Source: Actinomycetes bacterium (GTDB taxonomy: Bacteria; Actinomycetota; Actinomycetes; JACCUZ01). Taken from it: a stretch of 36,569 nt of DNA. Within the stretch, counting starts at the first letter, position 1. Each line of letters opens with the position of its first letter. The notes beneath the pieces were generated by a model. The model searched no databases, was not told the DNA's origin, and was given only the letters and a program-made list of their open reading frames with translations. The position numbers were made by a program, and so were the translations under genes. Positions 27,414 through 35,555 of this stretch are shown piece by piece. The stretch covers positions 1 through 36,569 of the forward strand of contig DATHAP010000150.1 of assembly GCA_035489715.1 (NCBI GenBank), in the 5' to 3' direction.

Positions 27414-28919
27414 GTGACGACCCGGGTCGCGGTGGCCGCGCCGAACGGCCATGCCACCGGCGCCGCCCTGCGGGTGGTCGCCGAGGGAGGGGGCGCCGTC
27501 GACGCCGCCGTCGCGGCGATGCTCGTCACGATGGTGACCGAGCCCGGCATCGTCTCGCTGGCCGGTGGCGCTTTCACCACGGTCTGGCCGGCGGGTGAGC
27601 CGGCCGCCGTCACGGTGGACGGCTACGTCGCGATGCCCGGGCTGGGGGGGCGGCGTGAGCCCGCCGTGCACGACGTGGTCACGGACTACGGCGCCGGCGT
27701 CACGATGACCGCGGGCCTCGGGTCGGTCGCGGTGCCCGGAGCCGTCGCCGGGCTGGCCCTGGTGCAGGAGCGGTGGGGCCATCTGCCCTGGCGCGAGGTC
27801 GTCGGGCCCGCGACCGAGGTGGCGCGGACCGGGTTCACGCTCGGTGCGGCGTCGGGCTACTACCTGCCGTACGTCCGCGACTCGCTCTTCGGGTGGGACC
27901 CGCAGACCCGGGCCGCGTTGGAGGGCCCGGACGGGCGGTGGCTCGAGACCGGCGACCTCGTGGTCGTCACCGACCTGGCCGACACCCTGGCCATGCTGGC
28001 CGCCGTCGGACCGGACGCCTTCTACACCGGCGACGTCGCTGCGATCATGGCCGAGGACATGGCCGACCGTGGCGGCCTGGTCTCGGCCGAGGACCTCGCG
28101 GCGTACCGCCCGGTGGTCCGGCCCGCACTGGACGTCGACGTAGGCGCCTGGCGGCTGCGGACGAACCCGCCGCCCGCCATCGGCGGGGCGGTGCTCGCGG
28201 CGATGCTGACCCTGCTGGGCGACCGGCCGCGCGGCGAGTGGACGCGCGACGACGTGGCCCACCTGGTGGAGGTGCAGCGACAGGTGCTCGAGGTGCGCCG
28301 CGAACGGATCGACCTCGCCGACGACCGGGGGGCCGCCGCGTGGGAGCTGCTGCGCGGGGTCGGGCACGCCGGTGCGACGTCACCGAGCACCGCGCACGTG
28401 TCGGTGGTCGACAGCGACGGCGGGGCGTGCGCCGTCACCTCGTCCTACGGCTACGGCTCCGGTGCCACGGTGCCCGGCACCGGCCTGTGGCTCAACAACT
28501 GCCTGGGCGAGCGCGAGCTCAACCGGGGTGCGCAGCCGCCGCCGGGCACCCACCTGGCGAGCAACATGGCGCCGACCGTCGGGCGCCGGGCCGATGGAGC
28601 GGCGCTGGCGATCGGCAGCCCCGGCGCCGACCGCATCACGACCGCGCTGCTGCAGGTGCTGGCGTCGTACGCCAACGGTGGGACGACCCTGCAGGCGGCC
28701 GTCGACCGGCCGCGGCTGCACGTCCACCACGTCGAGGGCGGCGGCGTGCGGGTCGACGCCGAGGAGGACCTGCCGCTTCCCGTGCTGGAGCTCGAGGTAC
28801 GGCGGCACCACCCGCACTCGATGTACTTCGGCGGCGTGGCGGCGACCGGCGTGACGCCGGACGGGGGGCTTCAGGCGGCGGGCGACCCACGACGTGCGGG
28901 AGCCGTGGCCATCGGCTGA
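27414..28919 (+). CDS. gamma-glutamyltransferase family protein (Ntn hydrolase)
   Basis: A 501-residue member of the GGT family, which cleaves or transfers gamma-glutamyl groups after self-processing. The N-terminal AAPNGHATGAALRVVAEGGGAVDAAVAAML block is typical. The processing site and nucleophile are probably Thr326 in SPSTAHVSVVD, followed by VTSSYGYGSGATVPGTGLWLNN (substrate loop) and GSPGADRI. There is no signal peptide, so it is cytoplasmic, unlike the periplasmic enzymes; it also differs at the loop residue after LNN (Cys). GTG 27414 has a CACGAT box 6 nt upstream. Its last 49 bp are antisense to the VKOR gene. Confidence 0.9.
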   Translation: MTTRVAVAAPNGHATGAALRVVAEGGGAVDAAVAAMLVTMVTEPGIVSLAGGAFTTVWPAGEPAAVTVDGYVAMPGLGGRREPAVHDVVTDYGAGVTMTAGLGSVAVPGAVAGLALVQERWGHLPWREVVGPATEVARTGFTLGAASGYYLPYVRDSLFGWDPQTRAALEGPDGRWLETGDLVVVTDLADTLAMLAAVGPDAFYTGDVAAIMAEDMADRGGLVSAEDLAAYRPVVRPALDVDVGAWRLRTNPPPAIGGAVLAAMLTLLGDRPRGEWTRDDVAHLVEVQRQVLEVRRERIDLADDRGAAAWELLRGVGHAGATSPSTAHVSVVDSDGGACAVTSSYGYGSGATVPGTGLWLNNCLGERELNRGAQPPPGTHLASNMAPTVGRRADGAALAIGSPGADRITTALLQVLASYANGGTTLQAAVDRPRLHVHHVEGGGVRVDAEEDLPLPVLELEVRRHHPHSMYFGGVAATGVTPDGGLQAAGDPRRAGAVAIG

Positions 28920-29365
28920 GCGCCGGCGGCCGGCGGTGCCAGAGCCGCGAGGAGCAGCACGACCGCGAAGAGCACCACGGTGGACACGTGGACCACGGTG
29001 CACCACAGGCAGATCGCGTCGATCCGGAACAGCTCGGCCCACACCAGGTAGAAGACGAACCCGACACCGGCGGCGAGCGCCGCGATCCGCAGCCGCGACA
29101 CCAAGGGGCTCGCCGTGCGCCACGCGACGGGCAGGCACAGGGCGACGATCCCCACGTAGTAGACGAGCCCGAGCAGGGCCACCGGCACACCGGCCAGCTC
29201 GGAGTACGAGCTGCTGGTGACCTTCACGCAGTTGATGGCACCGGTGTCGGGGCAGGCCAGCGTCGCCGACGTGGAGTAGTGCTCGTAGGCGAGGTAGATC
29301 GACACCCCGAGCCCCAGCAGGGCCAGGGGCAGCGTGAGCAGGACCGCCCGCCGGGTCGGGGTCAC
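28871..29365 (-). CDS. vitamin K epoxide reductase (VKOR) family membrane oxidoreductase
   Basis: A 164-residue membrane protein that reoxidises a thiol partner and passes electrons to quinone, making disulfides in exported proteins. It has four to five helices. The loop cysteines are in LACPDTGAINCVKV and the active CXXC is in ICLWCTVVH; the conserved Ser/Tyr region is SSSYSELAGVPVALLGLVYY. GTG 29365 overlaps the DUF929 stop (GTGA), so the two are coupled. The terminal residues (APARRGSPAA) lie antisense to the gamma-glutamyltransferase 3' end. Confidence 0.93.
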   Translation of the reverse strand: MTPTRRAVLLTLPLALLGLGVSIYLAYEHYSTSATLACPDTGAINCVKVTSSSYSELAGVPVALLGLVYYVGIVALCLPVAWRTASPLVSRLRIAALAAGVGFVFYLVWAELFRIDAICLWCTVVHVSTVVLFAVVLLLAALAPPAAGAQPMATAPARRGSPAA

Positions 29366-30294
29366 GAGCCCGCGTCGAGCTTCTTCGCCGCCGTCATCAC
29401 GCCCGTCGACATGCAGACGTTGTGCGGCTGTCCGTCGGTCAGCTCGCACAGGGCGGCCGTCAGCACGTTCGCCGACCCGTTGACGGCCTGCGCGGTGTCG
29501 CTCTGCGGGTCGTCGAGCGCGGACGCGATGTCCGTCCGAGACTTGCCCACCAGGACGTCGGGGACGTACTGCGACCCACCGAGGACGAACTCGCCGCCGA
29601 GGGAAAGGAACGGGATGGAGCCGGCTGGCCCGGAGATGAACGGTGGCCGGGCGTAGGTCACGAACGTCCGGGCGTCTTCACCCTTCAGCTCGTCCAGCTT
29701 CTCGTACGCGCCGTTCACCTTCTGGTTCGTGGACGTCTCGACACCGGTGAACGAGAGGTAGTCGCTGGTGTAGCTCGCGCCGTGGAAGGTCAGCGTCCTG
29801 GTGCGGGGGTAGACGTCGTCACTGGCCGACTCCGAGCCACCGAGGCCCTTCCAGGTGCCGAAGCGGGAGAGCGCGACGACCACCGGCCAGCGCTGGGCGG
29901 CGCAGAAGGGGCAGTACTCCGCCCCGACGTAGAGGACCTGGGGCTTGCCGTCCTGGGTGATCGCCCTGGCGTCCGGCACCCGGGTCGGCGGCGTCTCGCT
30001 GGTGCCGGCGCCGACCGCGTCCAACGCGGACGGGGGGACGCTGGTCGCCGCCTTGACCGCCGCATCGGCCGAGCTGGTGGACGCCGCGGCCGGGTCGTCG
30101 GCGCCGTCACCGAACCCGGCGACGCTGGCCACCACCAGCCCGGTCAGGACGAGGGCGACCGCAGCGATGGACGCCACGGCGATCCGCAGCCGGCGGCGGC
30201 GCTCGGCGTGCGCCCGCTCGGCGGCGAGCTCGCCAGCGCGGCGCTGGCGATCGGCCGCCTTCCTCGAGTTCGAAGTCGGCGTACGGCTGCTCAT
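29362..30294 (-). CDS. DUF929 thioredoxin-like membrane-anchored protein
   Basis: A 310-residue protein. Residues 1-35 are basic and cytoplasmic, 36-59 form a membrane anchor, a Ser/Ala/Asp linker runs to about 110, and the extracytoplasmic DUF929 domain follows with a CPFC redox motif (C128, C131) in LYVGAEYCPFCAAQRW. IPFLSLGGEFVLGGSQYVPD takes the place of the cis-Pro region, and two late Cys (AALCELTDGQPHNVC) may form a structural disulfide. It is translationally coupled to VKOR, so the pair most likely forms a disulfide-generating relay at the outer face of the membrane. Confidence 0.92.
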   Translation of the reverse strand: MSSRTPTSNSRKAADRQRRAGELAAERAHAERRRRLRIAVASIAAVALVLTGLVVASVAGFGDGADDPAAASTSSADAAVKAATSVPPSALDAVGAGTSETPPTRVPDARAITQDGKPQVLYVGAEYCPFCAAQRWPVVVALSRFGTWKGLGGSESASDDVYPRTRTLTFHGASYTSDYLSFTGVETSTNQKVNGAYEKLDELKGEDARTFVTYARPPFISGPAGSIPFLSLGGEFVLGGSQYVPDVLVGKSRTDIASALDDPQSDTAQAVNGSANVLTAALCELTDGQPHNVCMSTGVMTAAKKLDAGS

Positions 30295-31376: not shown

Positions 31377-32453
31377 TCACAGCGGCCGCGGGGCGACCCG
31401 GCTCACCGTGTCCCCGCCGACCGCCCACAGCACCCCGCCGGCCGAGGTGAGGGCGGCGACGTCGTGCCCGACGTCCAGCGAGCCGAGCACGTCGCCGGTC
31501 GACGGCTCGATCCGCGTCAGGTGGCCGCGGAAGCCCACGACCCGGGCCACCCAGCCCGAGCCCGCCAGCTCGGCCACACCCAGGGTCAACCCGGGCAGCT
31601 CGGTCTCCGTGAGCACCTCTCCGGTGACCGGGTCGATCTGGGACACGCTGCTGCCGCAGATCCGCGACGACACCCAGACGCTGCGCCCGACGGCGACCCC
31701 GCCGCAGGCGCCGTCGACCGGGACGGTCGCCACCACCTGGTCGGTGCGCGGGTCGATCCGGACCACAGCGTCGTCGCTGTCGACGTTGACCCAGACCGAT
31801 CCGGGCCCGACCGCCACATGGCCCGGTCCCTGCGGTGGGGTGCCCATGGGCACGGTCGCGACGACCTCGCGGGTCGCCGGGTCGATCCGGCTGACCGACG
31901 CGGTCGCAGAGCCGTGGTGGTTGGTGACCCAGACGGCGTCGGTGCCGGCAGCGAGCTGCCACGGGTCGTCGCCGACCGCGATCCGGTCCGTGACGGTGTC
32001 GTCCGACGGATCGATCCGTACGACGGTGTCCTCGGTCGGGCTGGTGGCCCAGACGGCGCCCGCACCGAACGCGACGAAGGTCGGCTCGCCGGCCGCGTTG
32101 TCCGCGCCGCGGCCGCCGATGTCGATCCTGGCGCGGACCTTGCCGGTCCGCCGGTCGAGCCGGACCACCTCGAGGCGCCGTGGCACGGTGACCCACACCG
32201 ACCCCGAGCCGACTGCCAGGTGGAACGCCCCACGGACCTTGGTGCGGTCCACGACCTCGGCGACGACCGCCGTGCCGTCGGTCACCACCGCAGCCGGCGT
32301 CGTCGACGGGGTCGTGGTCGTCGTCGTGGTTGCAGACGTCGTCGTGGTCGCGCCGGCGGCTGTCGGCTCGTCCCCCGCGCAGGCCGCCAGCAGGCAGGCG
32401 ACCAGGATGCCCACGGCTGCCCCCGTGAGCCGTTGTCCGGTGGTCCTTCCCAT
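31377..32453 (-). CDS. beta-propeller (YVTN/Vgb-like) lipoprotein
   Basis: A 358-residue exported lipoprotein. The signal peptide ends in lipobox LAAC (Cys25), and a Thr-rich linker follows (about 34-53). Then come about seven repeats of 40-45 residues, each containing a pattern such as VAVGSGSVWV, VAFGAGAVWA, LAAGTDAVWV, VAVGPGSVWV and VAVGRSVWV followed by RIDP-T-GEVV, which builds a seven-bladed propeller. No catalytic residues can be named; a binding or sensing role is likely. ATG 32453 has a GGGGGAGGA Shine-Dalgarno sequence. It is divergent from an ECF sigma factor whose partner has the same propeller type. Confidence 0.9.
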   Translation of the reverse strand: MGRTTGQRLTGAAVGILVACLLAACAGDEPTAAGATTTTSATTTTTTTPSTTPAAVVTDGTAVVAEVVDRTKVRGAFHLAVGSGSVWVTVPRRLEVVRLDRRTGKVRARIDIGGRGADNAAGEPTFVAFGAGAVWATSPTEDTVVRIDPSDDTVTDRIAVGDDPWQLAAGTDAVWVTNHHGSATASVSRIDPATREVVATVPMGTPPQGPGHVAVGPGSVWVNVDSDDAVVRIDPRTDQVVATVPVDGACGGVAVGRSVWVSSRICGSSVSQIDPVTGEVLTETELPGLTLGVAELAGSGWVARVVGFRGHLTRIEPSTGDVLGSLDVGHDVAALTSAGGVLWAVGGDTVSRVAPRPL

Positions 32454-32486
32454 CTCGGTCCTCCCCCTCGCGTGTCGGATGTACGG

Positions 32487-32556
32487 GCCCTGAGACGTGC
32501 ACCACCCGGATCGGTTTACCTGTCAACCGAAGCCGCGCTGGTGCGTCACTCAGGGC
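32487..32556. promoter_or_regulatory. nested inverted repeats in the sigma/lipoprotein divergent promoter region
   Basis: Outer arms: GCCCTGAG (32487-32494) with CTCAGGGC (32549-32556), continued by CACCA (32500-32504) with TGGTG (32539-32543). Inner arms: CGGTT (32512-32516) with AACCG (32525-32529). The two symmetry centres are about 1 bp apart, midway between the divergent genes. Confidence 0.6.
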
Positions 32557-32592
32557 GTCGGAAGGCGGATACTGCGGCCAAGGGGCTGACAC

Positions 32593-33129
32593 GTGGACGA
32601 GAGCCAGGTGTGTGCGGGCGCCGTGGTGGCCGACCCGCCCACCGGCGACCTCGTCGGCTCCCTGTTCGCCGCCCACTACCCGCGGCTGGTCCGGCTCGCC
32701 GTGCTCCTCGTCGACGACCAGGAGACCGCGGAGGACGTGGTGATGGACGCCTTCACCGGTCTGCACCGCCGGCGGCTCTGGCTGCGGGACCCCGACGACG
32801 GCTTCCGCTACCTGCGCTCGGCGGTGCTCAACGGGTCGCGCAGCAAGCTGCGGCGCCGCCGCACCGTGCGCAACACCGACCTGCCGGCGCCACCGACGAC
32901 GACCGGCTCCGCCGAGGAGGAAGCCCTCCAGCGCTCGCGCGAGCGCGAGCTGGTCGCCTACGTGCGTGGCCTGCCCCAGCGTCAGCGCGAGGTCGTCGTG
33001 CTGCGCTACTACGGCGGCCTCAGCGAGGCCGAGATCGCCGCCGAGCTGCGGATCAGCCGAGGGACGGTGAAGGCCCACGCGTCCCGGGCCCTCGACGCAC
33101 TCGCGCGGGCGATGGAAGGGGGTCGGTGA
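32593..33129 (+). CDS. ECF RNA polymerase sigma factor, SigE family
   Basis: A 178-residue sigma-70 factor with only regions 2 and 4. Region 2 runs about 20-90 (LFAAHYPRLVRLAVLLVDDQETAEDVVMDAF, FRYLRSAVLNGSRSKLRRRR) and region 4 about 115-170 (LPQRQREVVVLRYYGGLSEAEIAAELRISRGTVKAHASRAL, a clear helix-turn-helix). GTG 32593 has AAGGGG 8 nt upstream. The stop overlaps the next ATG by one base (TGATG), the usual position for a membrane anti-sigma or signalling partner. Confidence 0.94.
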   Translation: MDESQVCAGAVVADPPTGDLVGSLFAAHYPRLVRLAVLLVDDQETAEDVVMDAFTGLHRRRLWLRDPDDGFRYLRSAVLNGSRSKLRRRRTVRNTDLPAPPTTTGSAEEEALQRSRERELVAYVRGLPQRQREVVVLRYYGGLSEAEIAAELRISRGTVKAHASRALDALARAMEGGR

Positions 33130-34262
33130 TGACGACGCCGACGACGCAGCCGTGGGACCTGGAGCGCGCGCTGGAGTCCGCCCTCGCCGCCGAGGCCGAC
33201 GTGGCGGAGATCGACGTCCACGCGGCGGCCAGCCGGCTGGAGGAGCGTCTCGACCGATCACGCCGGACGGCGCGGGTCGTCCTGGCCGGCGCGGCTGCCG
33301 CCGCCGTCGTGCTCGTGGTGCTGCTCGTCCAGGGCGGTCCGGACGATCGGCGCAGCGCACCCCCGGCCGAGGACGACCGCCAGGGCGGGCAGGTGACCGC
33401 GGTGGTACCGCAGGGCGCCGGGCTCACCGACATCGGCCAGCCGGTCTACCGGGTCGGCAGCGACGGGCGCACCGCCTGGGTGACCGACCAGACCCAGCGG
33501 CTGACCGGCGTCGCGCTCGACGGCGGTGACATCACCACCCGGATCGAGCTGCCCGGCGAGGACGGCAGCGCGTTCGACGTCGAACCGGTCGGTGACCTGG
33601 TCTGGGTCAGCCTGCGACTGTCCAACCTGGTGGTCGCGGTGGACCCGCGCACCGGTGAGGTCGTGCACCAGGTCCGCACGACCGGCGACCGCGGGCCGTT
33701 CGGCATGGCCGTCGACGGCGGTGATCTCTGGTCGACCGCCGGCGCCACCCTGCTGCGGATCGACGCCGCCACCGGGGAGCTGCTCGACACCATCCAGCTG
33801 CCGCCGACCACCCGCGCCTACGACGTGGCCGTGGCCGGCGGCTCGGTGTGGGTCACCGACGTGGGTCCGCCGTTCCGCGTCCTGCGCTACCAGCCCGGGC
33901 GGGACCGGCTGGTGCCGACGCTGCTGCCCGCCTCCCCCGCCGGCATCGCCGCGACCGCCGACGCCGTCTGGGTCGCGATGGTGGCCCGCCCCGAGCTGCT
34001 GCGCGTCGACGCGGAGTCCGGGCTCGTCACGGACCGCGTCGAGCTGCCCGGCAACGGCCTCGCCGTCACGGCCACCGGCCCCTCGGTGTGGGTGGGGCTG
34101 CCGGAGATCGACCAGGTGGCCGAGGTCGACGCCAGGTCCCGACGGCTCGTGCGGCTGCTGCAGGTGGGGAGCTACCCGCCGTTCGCCCGGCAGTACGGCG
34201 ACATGCTGCTCGTCACGAGCAACCTGGGGGGCGAGCTGGTCCGGGTGCCGCTCGGCGACTGA
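33129..34262 (+). CDS. single-pass membrane beta-propeller, putative anti-sigma or sensor partner
   Basis: A 377-residue protein. A cytoplasmic N-terminal part (1-47, LERALESALAAEADVAEIDVHAAASRLEERLDRS shape) is acidic and helical, one membrane helix lies at about 49-67, and an extracytoplasmic seven-fold propeller follows (GRTAWVTDQ, GDLVWVSLR, GDLWSTAG, GGSVWVTDV, ADAVWVAMV, GPSVWVGLP, GDMLLVTSN). There is no zinc-binding anti-sigma motif, so the short N-terminus would have to hold the sigma factor by itself. Coupling to the ECF gene and topology suggest that the propeller senses an outside ligand and controls the sigma factor; this is inference. Confidence 0.88.
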   Translation: MTTPTTQPWDLERALESALAAEADVAEIDVHAAASRLEERLDRSRRTARVVLAGAAAAAVVLVVLLVQGGPDDRRSAPPAEDDRQGGQVTAVVPQGAGLTDIGQPVYRVGSDGRTAWVTDQTQRLTGVALDGGDITTRIELPGEDGSAFDVEPVGDLVWVSLRLSNLVVAVDPRTGEVVHQVRTTGDRGPFGMAVDGGDLWSTAGATLLRIDAATGELLDTIQLPPTTRAYDVAVAGGSVWVTDVGPPFRVLRYQPGRDRLVPTLLPASPAGIAATADAVWVAMVARPELLRVDAESGLVTDRVELPGNGLAVTATGPSVWVGLPEIDQVAEVDARSRRLVRLLQVGSYPPFARQYGDMLLVTSNLGGELVRVPLGD

Positions 34263-34274
34263 CCGCCGGTTCGG

Positions 34275-35102
34275 TCAGACGGTGACGCCGAAGGCCTCGG
34301 TGAAGGCCTTCTTCGCGTAGGCGTTGCTGGCGTAGGCGAACCCGTTGTCGCCCCAGCCGGTGCCCCAGCTGTTGCGGATGATGAAGCCGGTCGAGGTGTA
34401 GCCCACCATCGCGACGGCGTGCCCACCCCGGGCGGTGGCCGGCTTGTACGTCGTCAGCTTGCCCTTGCTCGCCGTTGCGTTGTCCCAGGTGCTGTCGACG
34501 TCGAGCCGGGTCAGGATCGGCCCGTTCTGGGCCAGCCAGGTGCGCCAGTCGGTCGGGTCGGTGCCGAGGTTGAAGTACGCGGCGATCTTGAGCTGGGTCG
34601 ACAGGGCGTAGAACGTGGCCACCTCCCCGGCGTAGAGCTTGCCGGACGCGAACGGCAGCACCGAGTCCTGCACGGCACCCCACTTGCGCGACACGTCCAA
34701 CGCCGCCTTGAGCCAGGTGCCGTCGGACTCGATGAAGGTCGTGGGCTGGGCCACGAACTGGTCGGTCTCCTTCGCGGCCATCCAGATGAAGCGCGGTGAG
34801 AGACGCGGCGTCTTGGGCAGCCGGCCGGCCTGCACGAAGTGCCAGCGCAGCACGCCCTCGGCCGTGGCCCACCCGACGCACGAGCCGGTGTCCTTCTGGT
34901 CGCCGACCGTCCACCAGTCCTCGCGCAGGTCGCGGGACGCCGGGATCGCGCGGGCGGGCGCCCGCATCACCCCCGCGTCGGCGGCGTTGTGCATCCGCCA
35001 GTCGGTCTCGGTCCCGGGCGACGGCTGGCAGTTGAGCACCCGGCGCACCCCGCCGACCTCGGTGCTCGCAACGCCCGGCACGGGCTTCTCCTTGATCGCC
35101 AC
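34275..35102 (-). CDS. papain-like cysteine peptidase (family C1)
   Basis: A 275-residue protein. The peptidase domain starts near residue 52 (AIPASRDLREDWWTVGDQKDTGSCVGWATAEG shape): oxyanion Gln69, nucleophile Cys75, catalytic His228 in GGHAVAMVGY and Asn244 in IIRNSWGTGWGDNGFAY. No signal peptide or membrane helix is seen, so export would need another route or the enzyme is intracellular; a 50-residue N-terminal part may act as a propeptide. GTG 35102 was chosen because GGAGG lies 5 nt upstream; ATG 35120 is an alternative. A chagasin-like inhibitor gene is divergent, and the stop lies 12 bp from the convergent propeller gene. Confidence 0.93.
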   Translation of the reverse strand: MAIKEKPVPGVASTEVGGVRRVLNCQPSPGTETDWRMHNAADAGVMRAPARAIPASRDLREDWWTVGDQKDTGSCVGWATAEGVLRWHFVQAGRLPKTPRLSPRFIWMAAKETDQFVAQPTTFIESDGTWLKAALDVSRKWGAVQDSVLPFASGKLYAGEVATFYALSTQLKIAAYFNLGTDPTDWRTWLAQNGPILTRLDVDSTWDNATASKGKLTTYKPATARGGHAVAMVGYTSTGFIIRNSWGTGWGDNGFAYASNAYAKKAFTEAFGVTV

Positions 35103-35174
35103 GGCGACCTCCTCCCCCATGCGGCGCGACCCGGCGCCGCTATGGTCGTGACGGTAGACGCAGGTCCGCCCCGC

Positions 35175-35555
35175 ATGGGAAAGGGCGGGCAAAGCCGCGG
35201 CGGCGGCCGAGCACCGGGACGGGTCGTGGACGAGTCCGAACGAGCGGTCGAGCGGGAGTCCCGGCGTGAGGTCACCGTCGGCGATGTCGTCGAGCTGAGT
35301 GTGTCCGACCTGCCCGGTGCGGGGTACCGCTGGGAGGTGCCTGCGCTCCCTCCCGGGCTGGCCGTCGTCGAGGACGACTGGGTGCAGCCCGACCCGCCGC
35401 CCGGCGTCGGGGCCGGCCGGGCGCGCGTGCTGCGGATCCGCGCCGACCGGACCGGCGAGTACGTCGTCCGGCTCGAGCTGCGCCGGCCCTGGGAGGCCGC
35501 CCCGGCCCGGGTGAGCGAGGTGCCGGTGTCCGTCACGGCTCCCGCTGGACCCTGA
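35175..35555 (+). CDS. chagasin-like cysteine peptidase inhibitor (family I42)
   Basis: A 126-residue protein from ATG 35175. The I42 fold is seen from about residue 31: EVTVGDVVELSV, the first binding loop DLPGAGYRWEVP (family NPTTGYxW), GVGAGRARVLRIRA (family GxGG...), GEYVVRLELRRPWE (family RPW loop). All three loops that enter a C1 active site are recognisable, though the first departs from NPTTG. There is no signal peptide. Starts at ATG 35142 or GTG 35226 (109 residues, the length of chagasin) are equally possible. It is divergent from the C1 peptidase, its natural target by context. Confidence 0.82.
   Translation: MGKGGQSRGGGRAPGRVVDESERAVERESRREVTVGDVVELSVSDLPGAGYRWEVPALPPGLAVVEDDWVQPDPPPGVGAGRARVLRIRADRTGEYVVRLELRRPWEAAPARVSEVPVSVTAPAGP

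Follow-up and report, generated by a model that had tools for sequence, protein, structure and literature searches.

Among the described ECF systems in which a short membrane-anchored tail is encoded beside the sigma factor, CnrY grips CnrH through two helices (PMC4598750, PMC7406223), and in AabA, the membrane helix of which lies at residues 42-64, a cytosolic fragment of approximately 41 residues alone inhibits SigAb (PMC12153292). The anti-sigma domains of class I (ASDI/ZAS) are marked by HxxxCxxC or by a four-helix domain of approximately 100 residues, and an average ASDI length of 101 +/- 33 residues has been reported (PMC7406223). In the present study, a three-gene locus was analysed within a window of 36,569 nucleotides (the whole stretch of actinomycete DNA under analysis), and the most plausible interpretation is that it represents a sigma/anti-sigma arrangement, widespread but little characterised, in which the ectodomain is a variant one and the local regulon includes a propeller lipoprotein. 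An earlier note on this DNA had described a lipoprotein propeller, an ECF sigma factor and a membrane propeller protein, and all three were recovered as open reading frames. The lipoprotein P0003 (358 aa; 31377..32453, reverse strand) is a YncE/YVTN-type beta-propeller according to Pfam and TIGR02276; the ECF sigma factor P0002 (178 aa; 32593..33129, forward strand) was assigned by profile match to the SigE family (TIGR02983); and P0001 (377 aa; 33129..34262, forward strand) is the coupled single-pass membrane protein, a putative anti-sigma factor with a propeller ectodomain. The family assignment of P0002 is borderline: the hmmscan score of 141.7 bits barely exceeds the cut-off (141.55), and the score in a six-frame search (141.2 bits) falls just below it. 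A paralogue with which the protein shares approximately 54% identity reaches 160.6 bits on the same model. At the junction GGTGATG, the ATG of P0001 at 33129 shares one base with the sigma stop codon, and translation from an alternative in-frame GTG at 33126 would produce the overlap of 4 bases that is typical of SigE-family units. Thus, the sigma factor and the membrane propeller protein constitute a translationally coupled unit, as previously noted, and one of a kind that recurs in the SigE family. A separate classical anti-sigma factor was looked for in the neighbourhood of the sigma gene, and none was found.

Elsewhere in the window, a papain-family cysteine protease gene (Peptidase_C1, 1.6e-14; 34275-35066, reverse strand) adjoins a divergent gene for a chagasin-family inhibitor (Inhibitor_I42, 8.4e-14; 34839-35555, forward strand), the type of inhibitor that acts on such proteases. 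In addition, a VKOR family protein (28871-29449, reverse strand) overlaps a DUF929 thioredoxin-like membrane protein (29362-30294, reverse strand), and these two proteins likely form a disulfide-forming pair.

The predicted topology of P0001 comprises a cytosolic N-terminus (residues 1-49; 33129..33275, forward strand), the putative sigma-binding segment, followed by a transmembrane helix (residues approximately 50-68; 33276..33332, forward strand) and a seven-bladed propeller ectodomain (residues 90-377; 33396..34259, forward strand). Hydropathy places 48-49 residues inside the cell, and the AlphaFold2 model contains one long helix at residues 8-68. The sequence and the model bear out the short acidic N-terminus, single membrane helix and seven-fold propeller described previously, with the refinement that the N-terminus is acidic over approximately the first 30 residues and then basic. 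Although built from only two sequences, the model has a mean pLDDT of 79, rising to approximately 90 in the propeller core, with a low-confidence linker; the predicted blades are four-stranded, span residues 106-374 and are closed by an N-terminal strand at 90-92, giving seven in all. The fold neighbours identified using Foldseek include, among other propellers, E. coli YncE, and a sequence match to the YVTN S-layer propeller 1l0q (E 1.7e-6) was also obtained. The features of P0003, read from the sequence alone, include a lipobox (LAAC at Cys25), Pfam matches to DUF6923 (2.6e-9) and Glu_cyclase_2 (1.3e-9), and the TIGR02276 propeller repeat above the cut-off. The VWV/RIDP repeats of P0003 confirm the shared blade pattern of the two proteins, and the two sequences are homologous, with 31% identity (E 1e-12), both belonging to a single broad superfamily of propellers. 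Their suspected paralogy thus stands as homology and fails as a local, recent duplication. The best match of P0003 in its own genome is another propeller (65.9 bits, versus 54 bits to P0001), and no close orthologue of either protein was detected in 60 relatives; a search for close relatives of P0001 returned none in the genome contigs and general propeller matches only in the 60 relatives. A recent duplication at the locus was therefore rejected as the origin of the pair. The better match of P0003 is to a propeller in a large multidomain protein elsewhere in the genome. A protein of 1064 aa (L063:138-3332, reverse strand; G000:C224) reads as a cyclase-like N-terminal domain and a membrane helix, followed by a YVTN propeller and a domain of the peptide-binding (ABC substrate-binding-like) type, the non-propeller domains being named by eye; in three further genomes, the propeller match recurs in open frames of 1103-1159 aa.

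To place P0001 among the partners of related sigma factors, 370 distinct SigE-type sigmas were collected from 80 named loci and from regions of several dozen further genomes, and partners were counted for the 364 sigmas with more than 400 nt of readable downstream DNA. An adjacent membrane partner was observed for 345 of these 364, most commonly in a 4-base overlap (261). The partner tails have a median length of 45 residues, one helix is predicted in 309/328 complete partners, and the HxxxCxxC zinc motif occurs in 0 of the 345. The same arrangement prevails in the genome studied herein, where all 11 other SigE-type sigmas with a readable downstream gene are followed by a partner with a tail of approximately 40-65 residues, one helix and a different ectodomain; the partners of four more distant ECF sigmas in this genome are larger and contain cysteines (HxxxCxxC-like). 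The tail consensus reads E..LR.AL...A..V.P..D.L..[LI]RR, and basic residues come after it. Residues 10-89 of P0001 are 43% identical to the partner of a paralogous sigma (G000:C56), and the match of the P0001 tail to the SigE-partner profile is weak, its score being reached by 86 of 1000 shuffles; on these comparisons, the tail is probably a divergent member of the SigE-partner class. With 48-49 cytosolic residues, no cysteine and no HxxxCxxC, P0001 falls outside class I, and its short cytosolic segment ahead of one membrane helix is the layout of class II (CnrY type). The view in the earlier note that approximately 47 cytosolic residues set this protein apart from known anti-sigma factors is thus not upheld, the short tail being the rule in the SigE family and CnrY and AabA being equally short. 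A search for known anti-sigma domains in 45 partners against Pfam and NCBIfam detected no anti-sigma family in Pfam, and the tails of most scanned partners matched no family model above the cut-off. The tail-plus-helix of several partners gave weak, below-cut-off matches to NF052375 ('anti-sigma factor') and NF038083 (CU044_5270), suggesting that part of the partner class may already have been named, though with no tested function; in the record checked, a SigE-family membrane partner is annotated as 'hypothetical protein'. Three SigE-family sigma genes were also observed within approximately 5 kb of one genome (21265, 22472 and 25712; L268, G016:C3:20800-29000).

The tail and helix are the constant part of these partners, and the ectodomain is the part that is exchanged. 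The 337 ectodomains compared fall into 164 single-linkage families, and the 12 SigE partners of the genome studied herein represent 12 ectodomain families. At 50-70% sigma identity, the ectodomain is common to only 7-12% of pairs, and tail identity climbs gradually. The constancy of tail and helix is seen in the sigmas closest to P0002, among them those of Pseudonocardiaceae (51-58% identity), several of which have partners of 65-98 residues consisting of tail and helix without an ectodomain. Such ectodomain-less partners adjoin SigE-type sigmas, or lie within approximately 1.4 kb of them, at six of the loci sampled. The ectodomains of other partners include Gmad2, PD40/TolB propellers, FG-GAP, lipocalin-like and proline-rich types, or are absent, and the PD40/TolB propellers occur in some partners, including that of the nearest paralogue in the same genome. 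No relative of the YncE-type propeller of P0001 was found among the other 344 SigE partners, nor a second propeller of the P0001/P0003 type near any other of approximately 370 SigE-type sigmas. Thus, conservation of the three-gene layout across actinobacteria, a prospect raised with the earlier description of the locus, is not borne out in this sample.

A predicted promoter pair linking the lipoprotein to the sigma factor adds a new point to that description. The intergenic region between the two divergent genes is 139 bp long and contains AACCGA-N13-CGTC in both directions: one site, with GGTAAACC at -35, is the predicted ECF-type promoter of the lipoprotein gene (32494..32516, reverse strand), and the other is the predicted autoregulatory promoter of the sigma operon (32525..32547, forward strand), which carries the AAC-N16/17-CGTC pattern expected upstream of an autoregulated ECF gene. 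The exact motif occurs in only 5 copies in the 3.53-Mb genome, two of which lie in this region, and none of the remaining three is clearly a promoter. In the wider sample, AAC-N17-CGTC was observed upstream of 109/371 SigE-type sigma genes compared with 8.8 in shuffles, a count that takes in orthologues, so that the sites are not independent; spacings of N16 and N18 are also raised. The aligned family sites read G-T-a-AACC...G-CGTC, of which GGTAAACC in the lipoprotein site fits the left part and GCGTC in the sigma site fits the right part. In 20,000 shuffles of the 139-bp region, AACC-N14-17-CGTC appeared in both directions in 0.03%, and with the same AACCnn in 0.005%; the resulting p of approximately 3e-4 is post hoc and indicative, as the pattern was drawn from the two sites themselves. 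Based on this matching divergent promoter, the lipoprotein gene is most likely a target of the adjacent sigma factor.

Herein, we propose, with a reasonable degree of confidence, that the locus encodes a SigE-family sigma/anti-sigma unit in which a YncE-type propeller serves as an exchangeable sensor and the gene of the propeller lipoprotein is a local target. The short tail of the propeller sensor probably retains the sigma factor at the membrane: the 48-residue cytosolic tail of P0001 would bind the sigma factor and keep it off RNA polymerase, and a signal at the extracytoplasmic propeller, via ligand binding or proteolysis, would set it free. The free sigma factor would then transcribe its own operon and, from the divergent promoter, the lipoprotein, which would most likely be an output of the circuit acting outside the cell, where it may either bind a ligand of the same kind or feed back on the sensor through contact.

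Coupling and conservation reveal a partnership and not its sign, and the membrane protein might instead act positively, as a partner or sensor through which the sigma factor is activated or delivered, with the tail as a docking segment and not an inhibitor. RskA, reported to be a dual activator-inhibitor (PMC7509140), provides a precedent. Moreover, neither the coevolution analysis nor the fusion model gave a clear interface. With 219 pairs, mean-field coevolution placed the top couplings between tail helix 2 and sigma2 and between helix 1 and sigma4, like the known dual interface; with 318 pairs, this pattern was only partly reproduced, the 2x2 helix-by-domain contrast gave p values of 0.16-0.84, and coevolution was dropped as proof of the contact. 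The inter-protein couplings exceeded those of random re-pairing (20 versus 1-6), although re-pairing also removes shared ancestry, and the helix/domain coupling blocks showed no clear enrichment over a membrane-helix control. In an AlphaFold2 model of a read-through fusion of a Pseudonocardia sigma and its mini-partner, with a readout that excluded contacts, the tail helix reached a pLDDT of only 62-66, giving no confident tail. However, where a short tail anchored in the membrane is encoded beside the sigma factor in known ECF systems (CnrY, AabA), the tail inhibits, and such a positive partner is considered distinctly improbable.

The role of the lipoprotein and the meaning of the promoter-like sites also admit other readings. 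Competition for one ligand between the two propellers, or its relay from one to the other, as suggested in the earlier note, would be one possible role. A co-sensor function, as in RseB or CnrX, in which the lipoprotein binds the P0001 propeller and gates release of the sigma factor, with sigma-dependent expression closing a negative feedback, is a refinement of the proposed unit, and both can hold together. The divergent genes with matching promoter-like sites, the homology of the propellers and the existence of extracytoplasmic accessory proteins of the RseB and CnrX types point in this direction; however, no similar lipoprotein lies beside the other sampled SigE-type sigmas and the binding partners of propellers with this fold are of many kinds, and we regard this function as possible but doubtful. 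The two promoter-like sites overlap a palindrome, TCGGTT-N8-AACCGA, which could be the operator of an unrelated regulator, leaving the lipoprotein as a bystander of the sigma operon. The sites mirror each other around one centre, one palindrome accounts for AACCGA both ways, and reverse-strand AAC-N17-CGTC is near background upstream of other SigE-type sigma genes, divergent sites thus appearing to be no general feature of the family. A simple palindrome, however, matches neither the equidistant CGTC elements on both sides nor the GGTAAACC extension, which fit the family promoter, and the operator interpretation is therefore judged unlikely.

SigE-family sigmas are abundant in actinobacteria, with one to approximately 20 strong matches per genome among the searched genomes that have them. 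If the short tail is an anti-sigma domain, hundreds of unnamed proteins could be read as one class of sensors in which the ectodomain is exchangeable, and the regulons of SigE-family units could be approached through the promoter motif. We tentatively extend this proposal to the whole family, which might possess a poorly described, zinc-less anti-sigma tail of approximately 45 residues with freely exchanged ectodomains, and to a closed circuit at the present locus, in which the propeller sensor, via the sigma factor, might induce a further propeller, a secreted one, with the same ligand or the sensor itself as its binding partner. As the sensor, the sigma factor and the likely target all lie within 2.9 kb, the locus provides a compact test case.

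Compared with known systems, the locus shares the sigma family, the coupling, the short zinc-less tail and the single helix with the actinobacterial TIGR02983 units, and differs from the other partners sampled in the YncE-type propeller ectodomain of P0001. With the class II proteins CnrY (with CnrH) and AabA (with SigAb), P0001 has in common approximately 40-50 cytosolic residues, one helix and a position adjoining the sigma gene, a likeness of size and layout only. Both are proteobacterial proteins that act together with a distinct extracytoplasmic partner; in P0001, by contrast, the sensor is fused to the tail. E. coli YncE and the archaeal YVTN S-layer propellers resemble P0001 in their YVTN-like repeats and, by the model, in fold, with structural alignments at 15-21% identity, but are not anchored to a sigma factor. 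Finally, the ECF57 sigma factors bear WD40-like C-terminal extensions (PMC8999054), and propeller-type repeats thus occur in a sigma pathway there as here; in ECF57 they are fused to the sigma factor, whereas in the present locus the propeller is predicted to be extracytoplasmic and is carried on a separate protein.
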